Program-made: the position numbers and the translations under genes
The notes under the pieces: generated by a model
The model's database searches: none
What the model was told of the DNA's origin: nothing
The model's input: only the letters and a program-made list of their open reading frames with translations
Source of the DNA: Alkalihalobacillus sp. CinArs1
GTDB taxonomy: Bacteria > Bacillota > Bacilli > Bacillales > Guptibacillaceae
Direction of reading: 5' to 3'
Assembly: GCF_947387515.1 (NCBI RefSeq)
Contig: NZ_CANDOB010000001.1
Location: forward strand, 992,001-1,056,000
DNA: 64,000 bases
Shown here: piece by piece, positions 5,653-51,499 of the stretch
Layout: every line of letters starts with the position of its first letter
How positions within the stretch are numbered: position 1 is the first letter of the stretch

Positions 5653-5988
5653 AGTACATACCTCCTCTTCATACCATTCGAAAGGAGCAAGTATCTTGTT
5701 AGAGGTCCAAAAGACATAAAAGGCATATGTAATAAAAAAAAACCAGAGGCTAGCTCTGGTTCAAATATGGGTCACATAAGAGTGAGTTTTACGAAGGGGG
5801 GGACCACTACTCACTCTCAACATATCTTATGTATGAAATGCAGGAATGGTTGGACAAGTACCACGGTACAAACATGTATTTTTTCTCAATTCAACAAAAT
5901 TGGACATTCCCTCTCTCCTAAAGAGAATAAATTTCAGAGGCAATGGGAGACTGATACTATCATTATTTACCAAAAGGAGAGCGAGCTT
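5653..5988. other. Gene-free stretch with one hairpin
   Basis: About 336 bases between divergent genes. The only structure I see is an imperfect hairpin at 5741-5763 (ACCAGAG / CTCTGGT around GCTAG), possibly a terminator remnant. The open frame reading into 5989 has no ribosome site before the ATG at 5989. A 30-codon frame at 5829-5921 also lacks one. Confidence 0.5.
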
Positions 5989-6168
5989 ATGAATGAAAGA
6001 AAAAAACTGATTACCCATGATAGTGAGAAGTTACTGTCATCCGTCCGAGAGGAGATCGCTGAAGAATTTTTGGTTATGGAGGCGGTTCAAGAAAACGTTC
6101 AAGAAAAAGATTTCTATACCTATCACTTGTTAAAACAGGCAGAAGAAGAAAGAAGTAAAAAGAATTAA
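5989..6168 (+). CDS. Small charged protein, 59 residues, unknown
   Basis: Starts MNERKKLITHDSEK and is rich in Glu and Lys. AAAAGGAGA lies 8 bases before the ATG, which sets the start despite a longer open frame upstream. The segment VREEIAEEF resembles the first helix motif of alpha/beta-type small acid-soluble spore proteins, but the Gly-rich second motif is not evident, so that link is weak. It precedes the hemolysin III gene by about 60 bases on the same strand. Confidence 0.55.
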   Translation: MNERKKLITHDSEKLLSSVREEIAEEFLVMEAVQENVQEKDFYTYHLLKQAEEERSKKN

Positions 6169-31636: not shown

Positions 31637-32187
31637 GCCTTCCATTCCTTCGCTTCAGGAGGCATTTTGTAACCGCAATTATTACACGTTCTTAATTCTT
31701 CACTGCTGTTAAAGTGTTCGATCGCTTCTTTAACCTGTGTAGCGATATCAGTTAACTGCACAGTTGCACGGTGCATTTCATTGTTACAGTTATCACAGAA
31801 CCACAAGAAGCTTTCAAGTTCCCCTTTACCTCGTTTGCGCTCAAGTACGAGGCCGTAAGAATCAGCTACGCGGTGTGGAGAGTGAGGAACATTTGCTGGT
31901 AGCATGAACATTTCGCCTTCTTTTACTTCTACAACTTCACGTTCACCTTTTTCATTGATACATTCAACATAAGCACTGCCCTTAATTTGATAGAAAAACT
32001 CATCGGAAGGATCTACATGAAAATCCCGTCGCTTATTTGGACCTCCAAGGAGCATTGCGATGAATTCTGAGTCTTCCCACAGAACTTTATTATTAACTGG
32101 TGGTTTTAACTGATCTTTGTTTTCTTCAACTGTTTTCATCATGTCCATAACTCTTGATTTAAGGTAAGGTTTAGCTTGAGTTGCCAT
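31633..32187 (-). CDS. nbaC: 3-hydroxyanthranilate 3,4-dioxygenase
   Basis: 184 residues. Cupin fold with the Fe(II) site: His in KRRDFHVDPSDEFFYQIKG, its Glu, and His in PHSPHRVADSYG. GLVLERKR is a family hallmark. The C-terminal domain has two CxxC pairs, CDNCNNE (about 129) and CNNCGYK (about 167), the rubredoxin-like second iron site of bacterial enzymes. Opens 3-hydroxyanthranilate with O2 to ACMS. A perfect cre box lies about 20 bases upstream, overlapping the end of the IclR gene. Confidence 0.95.
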   Translation of the reverse strand: MATQAKPYLKSRVMDMMKTVEENKDQLKPPVNNKVLWEDSEFIAMLLGGPNKRRDFHVDPSDEFFYQIKGSAYVECINEKGEREVVEVKEGEMFMLPANVPHSPHRVADSYGLVLERKRGKGELESFLWFCDNCNNEMHRATVQLTDIATQVKEAIEHFNSSEELRTCNNCGYKMPPEAKEWKA

Positions 32188-46829: not shown

Positions 46830-47465
46830 TTAGAAGCTATCTTTAATCACTACGCGCTCTACTGGGAAACGAGCAGATGCATGTGCTTCAGCCGCTGCTT
46901 TGCCAATTGAGATCAGCATAACAGGAACATATCTGGATGGGATATTGAATTCGTCGATAAGAGCTTGTGGATTAAAGCCGCCCATCGGAATCGTATCGTA
47001 TCCCTTTGCTTTCGCTGCAAGCATAAGCTGCATAGCAGCTAGGGAACTATTTTTTACTGCCTCACTGTATGCGAAGCCTTCTCTTTCATATGCTCCATTA
47101 ATTTGAGAAACCAGTGTTTCCTTGACTGCATTATCCATAAAACCATTCTCTACAGCTTGACCGTAGATTTCTTCTGCATGAAGATTTGCTTCTGTATCTC
47201 CAAGAATTACGATGGTTGCAGAGCTATCTACAACTTGTTGCTGATTAAAAGCGATCGGAAGAAGTTTTTCTTTTTTCTCATTATCTTCAATCACGAGAAA
47301 CTTCCAGTGTTGAAGGTTCCAAGATGATGGCGCTTCAATCGTCGCATTTAGAATTTCATTCATATCTTCATCAGGGATCTTAACCCCTTTTTCATACTTT
47401 CTTACGGAATGACGCTCTTTCATTACTTCAAGAGCATCTAGCTTTTGTTCAACTTGTGTTGTCAT
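46830..47465 (-). CDS. Nitroreductase family protein (YdgI-like)
   Basis: 211 residues. FMN-dependent nitroreductase fold: RHSVRKYEKGVKIP (about 20), APSSWNLQHWKFLV (about 45), GYDTIPMGGFNP and YVPVMLISIGKAA near the end. Reduces nitro groups, quinones or similar with NAD(P)H. Start at 47465 after GGGAGA. A palindrome TGTAACA-N5-TATTACA lies 53 bases upstream, shared with neighbouring genes. Confidence 0.9.
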   Translation of the reverse strand: MTTQVEQKLDALEVMKERHSVRKYEKGVKIPDEDMNEILNATIEAPSSWNLQHWKFLVIEDNEKKEKLLPIAFNQQQVVDSSATIVILGDTEANLHAEEIYGQAVENGFMDNAVKETLVSQINGAYEREGFAYSEAVKNSSLAAMQLMLAAKAKGYDTIPMGGFNPQALIDEFNIPSRYVPVMLISIGKAAAEAHASARFPVERVVIKDSF

Positions 47466-47517
47466 CTGTTCTCTCCCTTTCCTATCCATTTATCTCTAAC
47501 TTTCTTATCTATTATAA

Positions 47518-47536
47518 TGTAACATATTTTATTACA
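47518..47536. promoter_or_regulatory. Palindrome site 1 (nitroreductase promoter)
   Basis: TGTAACA-TATTT-TATTACA, then GTTA. First nucleotide is 53 bases upstream of the start codon. Member of a shared set with 48071-48089, 49004-49022 and 50053-50071. Confidence 0.7.
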
Positions 47537-47554
47537 GTTATAAAACATCATTGT

Positions 47555-48049
47555 TTAGCAGTTGTGGCAGTATCTACCTTTCTTAGTCGGAGCTTTGTTC
47601 AGCAAGGATTTTGTATTCTTTTTCAACACTGCAAAAATCGACTTTGGTAGTTGATCTGGAAAATCAAGCTTTAACTTTAATTTTGAAAGCTCTGTCGTAA
47701 GCTTAATTGCAAGCTCTGGATATGCTAGGTACAAAGAGCGATAAGATGCTTGATCGAGTTGAATGAGCTCAACATCAGTTATAGCTTTGGCATAAAGGTT
47801 TTGATGCACAAAAATCGATCTGTTCCCAAGTACATCATTCGGTCCAAGAACTGCAAGTGGCGTTTTTTCGTCTTGCTGATAAATCGCTACGTTTCCTTGG
47901 CGAATGATATAGACATCACGATTCGTATGTTTAGGTCGAATTAAGAACCTTCCTTCATTCCGCTTCAACTTTCTCCCGGATCGCTCTAACTTATTCCAAT
48001 CCTTTGTTTCAAACTTCGTTTCACTTTTGTTCAATGCCAAACTTACCAT
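47555..48049 (-). CDS. Cyclic-nucleotide-binding-domain protein without HTH, Cys-rich tail
   Basis: 164 residues. The cNMP/CRP-type jelly roll covers about 15-120, with VYIIRQGNVAIYQQDEK, GPNDVLGNRSIF and AYPELAIKLTTELSKLK (the start of the dimerisation helix). The usual C-terminal winged helix is missing; instead a basic 40-residue tail ends in CHNC at the very C-terminus. So it cannot bind DNA in the CRP way. The CxxC could bind a metal or be redox-active; an Fe-S or heme link is a guess. Follows GGGGGTGAG. Part of the cluster with shared palindromes. Confidence 0.8.
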   Translation of the reverse strand: MVSLALNKSETKFETKDWNKLERSGRKLKRNEGRFLIRPKHTNRDVYIIRQGNVAIYQQDEKTPLAVLGPNDVLGNRSIFVHQNLYAKAITDVELIQLDQASYRSLYLAYPELAIKLTTELSKLKLKLDFPDQLPKSIFAVLKKNTKSLLNKAPTKKGRYCHNC

Positions 48050-48070
48050 GTTCGCTCACCCCCGAATAAT

Positions 48071-48089
48071 TAGAATTTATTTTGTTACA
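48071..48089. promoter_or_regulatory. Palindrome site 2 (degenerate, cNMP-domain gene)
   Basis: Right arm TGTTACA plus GTTA is conserved, the left arm (TAGAATT) is poor. It lies 22 bases before the start, like site 4 (21 bases). Confidence 0.4.
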
Positions 48090-48114
48090 GTTATCCCAAA
48101 AACAAAAACAATCA

Positions 48115-48531
48115 TTATAATTGTTTTTGCTTCAGGCTTTGTATAATATCACGAATGGTGTATTTCTTCAAAAATGATGTTAAGTGGTCCTCAGCATCGG
48201 TGAAGATGTCACCAAGGACTTCTGATAAATTCGCTCCCACAAGACAATACTGATTTGCGTCGGTACACTTAGGTTTCAATGAACCAATCGACGTTAACGC
48301 GTAGATCTTATCAAGCGTAACATCTTCGACTTTGCATGCTAATGTAAAGCCGCCACCAGCACCTTCTTTAGAGACGATGTATCCGTTTTTCTTTAATAAA
48401 CTAAGAATTTTTCTCATACGTACGGGATGGACGGATGCACTGCCAGCAAGGTAGTCACTTGTTGACATTTGTCCAGGCTTAATCGCTAATAAAGCCAGAC
48501 TATGCACTGCAAGAGTAAAATCACTATTCAA
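48115..48531 (-). CDS. Rrf2 family transcriptional regulator (YwnA-like)
   Basis: 138 residues, TTG start with GGGGG 8 bases upstream. Winged helix (DFTLAVHSLALLAIKPGQ, STSDYLAGSASVHPVRMRKI) and the wing GYIVSKEGAGGGFTLA. Cys in LKPKCTDANQYCLVGANL (about 93 and 100) is a usual place for redox or Fe-S sensing in the family. It is the only DNA-binding protein of the cluster at 46830-50032 and so the best candidate to read the shared palindrome. No copy of the palindrome precedes its own gene. Confidence 0.88.
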   Translation of the reverse strand: MNSDFTLAVHSLALLAIKPGQMSTSDYLAGSASVHPVRMRKILSLLKKNGYIVSKEGAGGGFTLACKVEDVTLDKIYALTSIGSLKPKCTDANQYCLVGANLSEVLGDIFTDAEDHLTSFLKKYTIRDIIQSLKQKQL

Positions 48532-48600
48532 TTTTAGCGCCCCCTAACACTTTCTTCAATTCCATCCTATCGTACTCCTTTTGTACCTTGCAAGAAAATT

Positions 48601-48951
48601 TTAACAGGCAACCGCTTCTTTTGACTTATTTCGTACAGCGTTGAGCTGGGCCGAAAGTTCTAAAAACCATTTCTTATCTTTTGTAATAAGAGCTAGATCG
48701 ATAAGGTTTAAAAGATACGTTTCGTCATGCTCAAAATCCTGCTTTTCCAACAATGAAACCCTATTTTGAAATGTCTCGATAACCTTTCCTACTGTCTCTG
48801 GGTTATCACATTCATGCACATATATTTTGATCGTTCCTAGATAATCATTTACTGAATCTACAAATCCTTTCACTAACTCATCATGAACTGATTTGCCTTT
48901 CACCCATTCACCTTTAGTAAATTGAGATTGTTGATGAAGTTGGTTCATCAT
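48601..48951 (-). CDS. IDEAL domain protein
   Basis: 116 residues. The C-terminal segment YLLNLIDLALITKDKKWFLEL matches the short IDEAL motif, found in several Bacillus proteins of unknown or regulatory role. The N-terminal 80 residues are helical and not recognised. The chain ends in VAC, with a C-terminal cysteine. Start after AAGGAGGGAG. A perfect palindrome (site 3) sits 53 bases upstream. Confidence 0.75.
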   Translation of the reverse strand: MMNQLHQQSQFTKGEWVKGKSVHDELVKGFVDSVNDYLGTIKIYVHECDNPETVGKVIETFQNRVSLLEKQDFEHDETYLLNLIDLALITKDKKWFLELSAQLNAVRNKSKEAVAC

Positions 48952-49003
48952 TATTCTCCCTCCTTATGGAAGATTATCGTGTTCCAACTGCGTCATCGCA
49001 TAA

Positions 49004-49022
49004 TGTAATAATAAATATTACA
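49004..49022. promoter_or_regulatory. Palindrome site 3 (IDEAL gene promoter), perfect dyad
   Basis: TGTAATA-ATAAA-TATTACA, then GTTA: the best copy of the set. First nucleotide is 53 bases before the start codon, the same distance as in site 1. Confidence 0.75.
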
Positions 49023-49045
49023 GTTAGATTTGTCAAGAGCTTCGA

Positions 49046-50032
49046 TCAAAGACCGAACTCTTCTGCAAGTAAACGATACGATTTCAGTCTCGCGTTAAAA
49101 TCATACGTTATCGTATTTACGATGACCTCATTGGTTTGATACATGTTACCTAACTCTTCGATTTGCTGTCTTACTTGCTTAGGGTCGCCAACGATTATAC
49201 GATTTCTGTTTTCCCTGATTCTTGCTTTATCAAACACAGAGTATGGATATTGCAGCGCTTCGTCCGGTGATGGGAAGCCAGTACCTGATTTTCCTTGTTC
49301 GATTAATAATATAGCAAGATCAAGACTAGAAGCTAAATACTCTGCTTCTTCCTCTGTTTCGCCGCATACAACAAAAACGGCTACGTTTGTCTTTGGTGTG
49401 TCGTTATACTCTGATGGTGAAAAACGCTCCATGTATTTATCGACTACGCTGCTTCCACCATTCCCGTTAATAAAATGAGCAAACGAAAATGCTAATCCTT
49501 TATTCGCAGCGATTCTTGCGCTACCACCGCTTGATCCTAGTAACCAAATATCAGGTTTCGTATCTCCTAGTGGTGTCGCATGAACATGATAAGAAGAAGC
49601 ACGCCCATTTAAGTAATTCGTAAGCTCATCGATTTGTTCAGGATACCGGTCGATATCTCTACGGTTGCCGTCTGCTAATGCTCTTGTAACGTTCGGCATA
49701 CCGCCTGGTGCACGACCTAAACCTAGGTCGATACGACCGGGGTTTAAAGATTCAAGCATCCTAAAATTCTCCGCCACTTTATACGAACTATAATGGGGCA
49801 ACAACACCCCTCCAGATCCAATCTTCATATGACTCGTGTTCGCTGCGAGGTGAGCGATCAACACTTCGGGACTAGAGCCCGCAAGACTTTTTGTACTATG
49901 GTGCTCAGATACCCAAAATCGATGGTAACCAAGCTTCTCAGTTTCTTTCGCAAGTTCCGTAGTTTCTTTTAAAGCTTCGACCGCTGTTTTATTTTTTGAG
50001 ACTGGGGATTGATCCAAAACGCTTAATTTCAT
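49046..50032 (-). CDS. Luciferase-like (LLM class) flavin-dependent oxidoreductase
   Basis: 328 residues, TIM-barrel LLM family of the MsnO8 type: LGYHRFWVSEHHSTKSLAGS (about 36-55), IGSGGVLLPHYSSYKVAE, and GRIDLGLGRAPGG. Uses reduced flavin and O2; substrate unknown. GAGGAG lies upstream of the ATG. Site 4 of the shared palindrome is 21 bases before its start. Confidence 0.92.
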   Translation of the reverse strand: MKLSVLDQSPVSKNKTAVEALKETTELAKETEKLGYHRFWVSEHHSTKSLAGSSPEVLIAHLAANTSHMKIGSGGVLLPHYSSYKVAENFRMLESLNPGRIDLGLGRAPGGMPNVTRALADGNRRDIDRYPEQIDELTNYLNGRASSYHVHATPLGDTKPDIWLLGSSGGSARIAANKGLAFSFAHFINGNGGSSVVDKYMERFSPSEYNDTPKTNVAVFVVCGETEEEAEYLASSLDLAILLIEQGKSGTGFPSPDEALQYPYSVFDKARIRENRNRIIVGDPKQVRQQIEELGNMYQTNEVIVNTITYDFNARLKSYRLLAEEFGL

Positions 50033-50052
50033 ATATAACGATCTCCTCGATT

Positions 50053-50071
50053 TGTAAAATGAATTATTACA
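50053..50071. promoter_or_regulatory. Palindrome site 4 (LLM oxidoreductase promoter)
   Basis: TGTAAAA-TGAAT-TATTACA, then GTTA. One mismatch in the left arm. Confidence 0.65.
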
Positions 50072-50179
50072 GTTAAATCATAACAGGTGTTTGTATTCTC
50101 TCCAATAAATCTGCTTAAAAAACAAACGGACCGTCACGCCCGTTAGGTTACGCCGGTCCAGTTTATTTATAGAGCCTAG

Positions 50180-51093: not shown

Positions 51094-51180
51094 TTAGTAA
51101 GCCCAAACTGCTCCTACGATAATCAATAGAATGAACAAAACAACGATTAGCGCGAAACCTTGACCACATCCATAGCTCAT
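51094..51180 (-). CDS. YjcZ family sporulation protein, 28 residues
   Basis: [20 protein letters not shown], then IVGAVWAY. The motif [18 protein letters not shown] is the YjcZ family core. One membrane helix. GGGAGG precedes the ATG. Family members are made in spore-forming bacilli and function is unknown. Confidence 0.85.
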   Translation of the reverse strand: MSYGCGQGFALIVVLFILLIIVGAVWAY

Positions 51181-51217
51181 AAAAAAACCTCCCTTCTAAT
51201 CGAGATATAAGAAAGGT

Positions 51218-51394
51218 TTAGTAGCCGTAACCGCCGTAACCGCCATAACCACCTTTTCCATAGCAGCATGGTCCTGTATTAGCTCCTCCTACTGCCGCTG
51301 CACCAACAATAATTAGAAGGATAAACAATACTACGATCAATGCGAACCCTTTACCGTATCCAGCAGGGCGCACGTTTTCTTTTCCACCGCTCAT
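51218..51394 (-). CDS. YjcZ family sporulation protein with Gly/Tyr tail, 58 residues
   Basis: Hydrophilic N-terminus ([14 protein letters not shown]), the same [17 protein letters not shown] core as the gene at 51094, then [20 protein letters not shown]. The Gly-Tyr repeats and Cys pair resemble spore-coat-type sequences. GGGGG lies upstream of the ATG. Tandem arrangement suggests duplication. Confidence 0.82.
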
Positions 51395-51499
51395 TTGAAA
51401 ACCCCCTTTCCTCGAAGGTTACTAATACTATATGTGCAAATTGAATGTAAGGGATGGGCATCTAACCATATTTAGCAAGATTTATATACCTTCACGTGC

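Follow-up and report, generated by a model that had tools for sequence, protein, structure and literature searches.

A palindrome shared by redox-type genes of Alkalihalobacillus is a probable operator of a SaiR-like Rrf2 repressor

SaiR of Bacillus anthracis, a regulator of the Rrf2 family, is said to control spxA2, in work attributed to Nakano and dated 2014. For two other Rrf2 repressors, HypR of Staphylococcus aureus and SifR of Streptococcus pneumoniae, PMC9218516 gives TGTAA-N9-TTACA as the operator core and sets the SaiR operator beside it. The SifR targets named there are catE, ywnB, yhdA and fre, with reductases among them; SifR and YwnA of B. subtilis are described as having a single conserved cysteine, in an HxxPNPxC motif, and in SifR the reactive cysteine is found at the helix alpha5 N-cap. 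HypR has two widely separated cysteines, Cys33 and Cys99, and its target is the disulfide reductase MerA.

We analysed a 64,000-nucleotide stretch of the genome of Alkalihalobacillus sp. CinArs1 (the window) that carries an Rrf2 gene within a cluster of redox-type genes (Table 1). An earlier note made from the letters of this DNA had proposed a local mini-regulon with a common palindrome, and had pointed to the Rrf2 protein as the probable regulator. By computation we located the sites, determined their conservation and their association with the Rrf2 gene, and assigned the genes to families, and the results support both proposals: the palindromes are very probably operators of the cluster's own SaiR-like Rrf2 protein, acting as a thiol-based repressor that responds to redox or electrophile stress. 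The earlier note had known no regulator with this motif, which did not hold, as the core is that of HypR and SifR (PMC9218516).

Table 1. Features of the cluster, with positions counted from the first letter of the window.
Feature	Position	Strand	Remarks
Nitroreductase-family protein	46830..47464	-	PF00881
Operator 4 (nitroreductase), putative	47518..47536	-	Exact TGTAA-N9-TTACA
164-aa cNMP-binding domain protein	47555..48049	-	PF00027; ends in CHNC
Operator 3 (cNMP), putative	48071..48089	-	Degenerate: TGTAA-N9-TTCTA
Terminator-like 15-bp A+T-rich hairpin and T run, end of Rrf2 gene	48100..48132	-	-12 kcal/mol, z -5.47
SaiR-like Rrf2 repressor (predicted)	48115..48531	-	TTG start; C89-X6-C96; PF02082
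116-aa protein, predicted small beta-barrel and C-terminal IDEAL domain	48601..48951	-	PF08858
Operator 2 (IDEAL), putative	49004..49022	-	Exact TGTAA-N9-TTACA
Promoter-like TTGACA-17-TATTAT of IDEAL–rrf2 unit	49008..49036	-	11/12 matches
LLM-class flavin oxidoreductase, MsnO8 family (TIGR03558)	49046..50032	-	NCBIfam 400.9 bits, cut-off 166.95
Operator 1 (LLM), putative	50053..50071	-	Exact TGTAA-N9-TTACA; AAC arm at 50072-50074

As had been proposed, a shared palindrome precedes the nitroreductase, IDEAL and LLM genes, with the core exact at all three; the longer pattern given earlier (TGTAAYA-N5-TRTTACA) fits the nitroreductase and IDEAL sites, whereas the LLM site fits the core but departs from the full pattern by one mismatch. 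What had been called a half-site before the cNMP gene is indeed a site, but it is a full-length 19-mer whose right arm is degenerate. Operators 1 and 2 are exact in all nine loci of the genus, operator 3 has one or two mismatches in all nine, and operator 4 is exact in four, has one mismatch in another four and is lost in one; outside the genus, four of five cNMP-bearing loci have an exact cNMP operator. The gap from site to start codon is 53 bases for the nitroreductase gene, 52 for IDEAL, 20 for LLM and 21 for cNMP, so that the two distance classes noticed earlier were right to within one base; gaps in related loci vary widely, and we rejected these classes as a general rule or code. (The listed nitroreductase ORF opens at 47489, and the start used here, at 47464, fits an upstream purine-rich stretch and the starts of relatives.)

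That A+T-rich spacers merely happen to hold such palindromes, or hold them as promoter elements, is a reading to which we give almost no credence, but it finds some support in the window and the genome. With two mismatches allowed, the window held four matches against 1.11 expected, a weak excess that 5 of 100 shuffles reached, and the bare core TGTAA-N9-TTACA occurs at 16 exact places genome-wide (80 for all spacings from N5 to N15 combined): three in the cluster, five in intergenic DNA elsewhere and the rest in ORFs, seven of them long and one short and doubtful. The earlier note had said that finding the motif at many unrelated places would count against the regulon; this is the case for the bare core, with 13 of 16 places elsewhere, but not for the extended form AACTGTAA-N9-TTACA, which has exactly three exact matches in the 4.03 Mb assembly, all in the cluster. 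The sole intergenic exact core elsewhere that fits TGTAAY-N7-RTTACA, as judged by eye, lies upstream of a VOC-type gene beside an HxlR-type gene (G000 C2:586141; gene names also judged by eye). Among the 13 genus genomes with this gene (of 14), the site was exact in one, had one mismatch in one and was absent from 11, and because it is not conserved we dropped the VOC-type gene as a further member of the regulon.

The chance reading is contradicted by a spacing control, which favours N9. Among the best 80 of 125 homologous Rrf2 loci we counted 245 copies of the N9 form, no more than 11 at each alternative spacing in the range 3 to 16 and one of a mirror motif with N9; only 2 of the 245 lay inside ORFs of clusters of five or more, every one of the 80 loci had at least one exact TGTAA-N9-TTACA nearby, and the sites are conserved across genera. 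The palindrome is a genuine feature well beyond what chance would give, and its outer extension, which the earlier note had included, is genuine too, the consensus over the 245 sites being AAcTGTAA-N9-TTACAgT. Within the same best 80 of 125 loci, a site was present at most 200 bases upstream of the Spx gene in 56 of 63 cases, of IDEAL in 71 of 74, of Rrf2 in 46 of 80 and of LLM in 8 of 11; an exact site preceded the nitroreductase gene in 3 of 10 and the cNMP gene in 0 of 9, most of these misses being sites with one or two mismatches in the genus. These locus counts are not independent because the loci are related: one pair among the 80 is identical, and 8 of 40 wider loci and 8 of 14 loci in an earlier genus set duplicate DNA already represented among them. 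No exact site was found in 9 of the 40 wider loci (24 top matches, L149–L172, and 16 picked at ~36–46% identity, L173–L188), nor in 5 of 23 further loci, which were the new top matches of a search where 66 of 398 genomes matched. In favour of a tie between site and Rrf2 gene, all 29 Spx/ArsC-family loci from 10 genomes, taken with 1.5 kb per side and none adjoining an Rrf2 or IDEAL match, lacked a site.

Membership of the regulator in the Rrf2 family is clear from its match to PF02082 (86.7 bits, cut-off 30), and its predicted winged-helix fold matches Rrf2 structures. The NCBIfam model of the Rrf2 superfamily scored 60 bits, below its cut-off of 73.3, and the best NCBIfam match was to HypR (NF041852), a likeness that stops at 62.6 bits against a cut-off of 180. 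The alignment shows C89 and C96 without exception in its 50 sequences, and C-X6-C is present in 79 of 79 cluster proteins, a difference from the spacing as stated for SaiR, C-X7-C. The genome has three Rrf2 matches, one nearest NsrR (below cut-off), one CymR and the protein of the cluster.

The earlier note had remarked that the Rrf2 gene alone lacks a site. None indeed stands directly before it in the nine genus loci, where the best candidates have three to four mismatches, but the gene is probably controlled through the IDEAL operator. It shares a strand with the IDEAL gene and follows it after a gap of 69 bases, which folds no better than shuffles; because of this short same-strand gap and the lack of a fold above shuffles, the IDEAL operator most likely serves both genes, the Rrf2 gene probably being the second of an apparent operon. 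The terminator-like hairpin listed in Table 1 was not flagged by a terminator scan that requires three G-C pairs.

Some regulators recognise TGT..ACA palindromes, and the cluster itself encodes a cNMP-domain protein, both of which would suit ownership of the sites by a regulator of the GlnR/TnrA or Fnr/CRP type, or by the cNMP protein, with the Rrf2 gene as a mere target. TnrA sites have N7 spacing, however, which is the wrong spacing, and GlnR/TnrA was rejected on that ground. The Pfam search of the cNMP protein found no HTH or other DNA-binding family, and its one weak NCBIfam match, to CRP, is confined to the nucleotide-binding part. All 80 of 80 loci have sites with the Rrf2 gene, although a cNMP relative is present in only 9 of them (best 80 of 125), and the N9 spacing is both specific and equal to that of the published Rrf2 operator (PMC9218516). 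We therefore consider a foreign owner of the sites very improbable.

A SifR/YwnA-like quinone sensor, with the same operator logic and another chemistry, is a less remote alternative to a SaiR-like protein, if still an unlikely one. Its operator core is identical (PMC9218516), and the motif was present in all four YwnA-like Rrf2 loci that we chose by hand (L189–L192), so the motif alone cannot name the regulator. The nitroreductase and LLM targets would suit detoxification of quinones or nitroaromatics, and in the model of the window protein C96 lies directly before helix 97–121, much as the reactive cysteine of SifR caps its helix. Against this reading, the clade of the window protein has two invariant cysteines and no HxxPNPxC motif, unlike the single-cysteine arrangement published for SifR and YwnA, and the presence of spx beside the gene in 63 of 80 relatives (best 80 of 125) points to SaiR.

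It is because spx adjoins the Rrf2 gene in those 63 loci, 56 of them with a site, that we call the window protein SaiR-like; together with the relatives' synteny, the label draws on the operator, compared with that of SaiR in PMC9218516, and on the pair of connector cysteines, and it should be taken as a prediction. Here the window differs from SaiR itself: no spx match was found in its locus, nor in eight loci of its genus (of the best 80 of 125). An exact site was absent from the 1.5 kb around each of the four ArsC/Spx-family genes of the genome, the degenerate sites before two of them having at best two (L107) and three (L108) mismatches, and we rejected the idea that this genome has Spx among the targets. 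A search for the SaiR sequence type found no C-X7-C protein beside spx among loci from order and class searches, most of which span ~1.5–2.8 kb per side. In a midpoint-rooted tree of 127 distinct rows and 141 columns, with 40 of 124 inner branches open and long-branch warnings, a split with support of 100/98 separated 29 rows (26 C-X7-C, 3 other) from 98 (95 C-X6-C, 3 other), and all 67 Spx neighbours were nested within a 74-row group (95/95).

The regulator's most constant partner is the IDEAL gene, present in 74 of 80 loci and preceded by a site in 71 (best 80 of 125). For the structure model of its product (pLDDT 86.5), Foldseek placed KapB of Bacillus cereus (1y71) first, in a full-length match with an E value of 1.2e-3; the likeness is limited, with a TM score of only 0.42–0.45 and an rmsd of about 14, and the protein has neither a sequence match to KapB nor the KapB Pfam match. 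A literature search at the level of listings found no paper that links such a protein to an Rrf2 regulator. Upstream of the gene, operator 2 spans the spacer and -10 of the promoter-like element, whose TTGACA is kept in all nine genus loci; promoter-like matches across the region numbered 8 against 8.0 in shuffles and are thus not in excess.

On binding, repression, promoters, operon structure, effector and enzyme substrates we infer a scheme from the sequence. A reduced Rrf2 dimer would bind AACTGTAA-N9-TTACAGT and block RNA polymerase, lying across the -35/-10 spacer and -10 at the IDEAL promoter, and at the LLM gene immediately after a promoter-like -10, where it would cover the probable start of transcription. 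By analogy with what is published on HypR and SifR, the repressor may be released when C89, C96 or both become oxidised or alkylated, which would turn on the LLM flavin oxidoreductase, the nitroreductase, the CxxC-tailed cNMP protein (all nine genus homologues end in CHNC) and the IDEAL–rrf2 unit; control of this unit by its own repressor would amount to negative autoregulation.

More tentatively, and with rather less than even confidence, we suggest that the ancestral switch consisted of an Rrf2 repressor and an IDEAL small-barrel protein, a pair that the C-X6-C and the C-X7-C clades alike have retained across Bacilli, and that Spx joined in a single derived clade. In the lineage of the window the repressor would directly drive flavin detoxification enzymes and a redox-tailed cNMP protein, and the IDEAL protein would be a redox-induced effector or adaptor, the main product of a SaiR-type response.

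The type of switch is already known, while the apparent set of genes controlled here and the IDEAL companion look new. For four genes so far annotated only by domain, the analysis offers a likely regulator, operator and class of signal, and within the response it picks out the IDEAL-domain protein as the member most consistently present. One redox switch has seemingly been re-used, standing beside the global regulator spx in most close relatives and having its sites directly on the enzymes here.

Five consecutive minus-strand genes encode an LLM oxidoreductase, an IDEAL protein, an Rrf2 regulator, a cNMP-domain protein and a nitroreductase. The LLM, IDEAL and nitroreductase genes are each preceded by an exact 19-mer of the form TGTAA-N9-TTACA, and the cNMP gene by a version whose right arm is degenerate, with gaps from site to start codon of 20 (LLM), 52 (IDEAL), 53 (nitroreductase) and 21 bases (cNMP).

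Genes of the cluster and promoter-like matches, in window coordinates
Feature	Position	Strand	Remark
LLM oxidoreductase	50032-49046	minus	
IDEAL protein	48951-48601	minus	
Rrf2 regulator	48531-48115	minus	
cNMP-domain protein	48049-47555	minus	
Nitroreductase	likely 47464-46830	minus	
TTGACA-17-TATTAT	49036-49008		best promoter-like match of the region; IDEAL operator spans spacer and -10
Promoter-like match before LLM	ends 50077		weaker (9/12); ends right before AAC arm

The earlier note had assigned this palindrome to no known regulator, which was wrong, because the same core is published for two Rrf2-family proteins: according to PMC9218516, HypR binds the core TGTAA-x9-TTACA, the SifR operator was found as TGTAA-N9-TTACA, and figure 4, by its legend, compares the operators of HypR and SaiR.

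Within the window alone, the test of the motif against chance was weak. Genome-wide, the extended form AACTGTAA-N9-TTACA had three exact matches, all within the cluster, and with at most one mismatch it had 14 matches versus 6 for a mirror control; the bare core occurred exactly at 16 places, versus 80 for the eleven spacings N5–N15 pooled. The decisive test was comparison across Rrf2 loci, for which we used the best 80 of 125 loci retrieved as relatives of the Rrf2 protein, without use of the motif; one pair among these 80 is identical. All 80 of these best loci contained at least one exact core copy, and their 813,679 bases held 245 copies with the N9 spacing, versus at most 11 for each other spacing from 3 to 16 and one for the mirror motif with N9. 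Two of the 245 copies lay well inside ORFs of clusters with at least five members. The copies comprised 136 distinct 19-mers, related yet varied, with the consensus AAcTGTAA-N9-TTACAgT. The shared palindrome of the earlier note is confirmed, and its GTTA extension corresponds to the outer arm of this consensus. Another exact core match, at window 31668-31686, falls within an ORF that by eye resembles 3-hydroxyanthranilate dioxygenase and is probably due to chance.

The window's own genome had three Rrf2 matches: CymR (above the cut-off), a gene whose best match was NsrR (below it) and the cluster gene. No exact site lay within 1.5 kb of its CymR or NsrR-like genes, nor of seven weaker Rrf2 matches in genomes of the genus. 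Counting against exclusiveness, all four hand-picked YwnA-like Rrf2 loci of other genomes had sites, which a common operator of SifR/YwnA proteins would predict; the three matches of the own genome included no YwnA-like protein.

The Rrf2 gene was present in 14 of 14 genus genomes searched, and nine genus loci (the window and L027–L034) contained all five cluster genes and no spx. In all nine, the LLM and IDEAL sites were exact and the cNMP site had one or two mismatches, while the nitroreductase site was exact in four, carried one mismatch in four and was lost in L032, in which the cNMP–nitroreductase spacer is missing, operator included (5960-6001), so that nitroreductase expression may rely on the promoter of the cNMP gene. 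Outside the genus, cNMP relatives were distant (24–30% identity), and four of five had an exact site (L149, L150, L151 and L169), with two mismatches in the best site of L057. The cNMP-domain protein, whose domain is regulator-like but lacks an HTH, ends in CHNC (window 47555-47575) in 9/9 genus loci; this may be a metal or thiol tail. Elsewhere, at window 51100-51400, the minus strand encodes a pair of short glycine-rich hydrophobic peptides, which we take to resemble YjcZ-type sporulation proteins.

We counted neighbors by tblastn in the best 80 of 125 loci, with starts extrapolated and exact sites scored up to 200 bases upstream. Spx was present in 63 loci (56 with a site), IDEAL in 74 (71), Rrf2 in 80 (46), LLM in 11 (8), nitroreductase in 10 (3) and cNMP in 9 (0). 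One representative Spx neighbor (L079) passed the NCBIfam Spx models, and no site was found in 29 Spx/ArsC-family loci (ten genomes, some overlapping) lacking an Rrf2 or IDEAL match alongside. Among 40 wider loci, 8 of which are identical in DNA to members of the 80, sites preceded Spx in 14/14, IDEAL in 18/31, cNMP in 4/4, nitroreductase in 3/4, Rrf2 in 19/40 and LLM in 0/1, this one locus being cut by the locus end; at least one site was present in 31/40 wider and 18/23 further loci. Three further core copies in Fictibacillus (L093 and L095, 4200-4600), located between a DJ-1/PfpI-type gene (L093) and the Rrf2 gene, suggest another target set, and thioredoxin-type genes recognized by eye near operators (L035:6216-6530, L076:789-1118 and L175:1863-2177) may be another recurring target. 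In the own genome, a TGTAA-N6-TTACA palindrome (C2:115881-115896) lies ~70 bases before one of the genome's two Spx-like genes.

The earlier observation that the Rrf2 gene lacks a site holds in that none directly precedes it in 9/9 genus loci, but the IDEAL operator most likely covers both genes. The Rrf2 start lies 69 bases after the IDEAL stop codon, the intervening DNA shows no more folding than its shuffles (z −0.73), and at the end of the Rrf2 gene there is a hairpin of 15 bp with a T run (z −5.47). Judged from sequence, the two genes are most likely one transcript, in which case the IDEAL operator would provide autoregulation. The TTGACA element is kept in 9/9 genus loci, and because the LLM promoter-like match ends at the AAC arm, the operator there would cover the transcription start; since promoter-like matches overall were not above shuffles, we infer these placements. 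A dimer bound at the putative IDEAL and LLM promoters would block RNA polymerase, and, by analogy with HypR and SifR, oxidation or alkylation of C89/C96 would release it. This cysteine pair is invariant in 50/50 aligned proteins.

The predicted structure of the IDEAL protein (pLDDT 86.5, pTM 0.57) is a barrel of five strands with two helices after it. Its best Foldseek match, KapB of B. cereus (E 1.2e-3, TM 0.42–0.45), had no sequence support, and no match had E under 0.001, so the predicted likeness is a lead only. In an Rrf2 tree (127 distinct rows, 141 columns, midpoint root, many forks open, many loci covering just 1.5 kb on either side), the main split separated C-X7-C (26/29 rows) from C-X6-C (95/98). 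IDEAL lay within 2.5 kb in 107/127 rows, on both sides of the split, and 67/67 Spx neighbors fell within a single group of 74 rows nested in the C-X6-C side; the IDEAL–Rrf2 pairing may therefore predate the Spx–Rrf2 pairing.

Because the window regulator has neither spx linkage nor the C-X7-C spacing, we regard it as SaiR-like, not SaiR itself. The observation is confirmed, the operator and regulator are of a known kind, and the target set in the window's lineage looks new.
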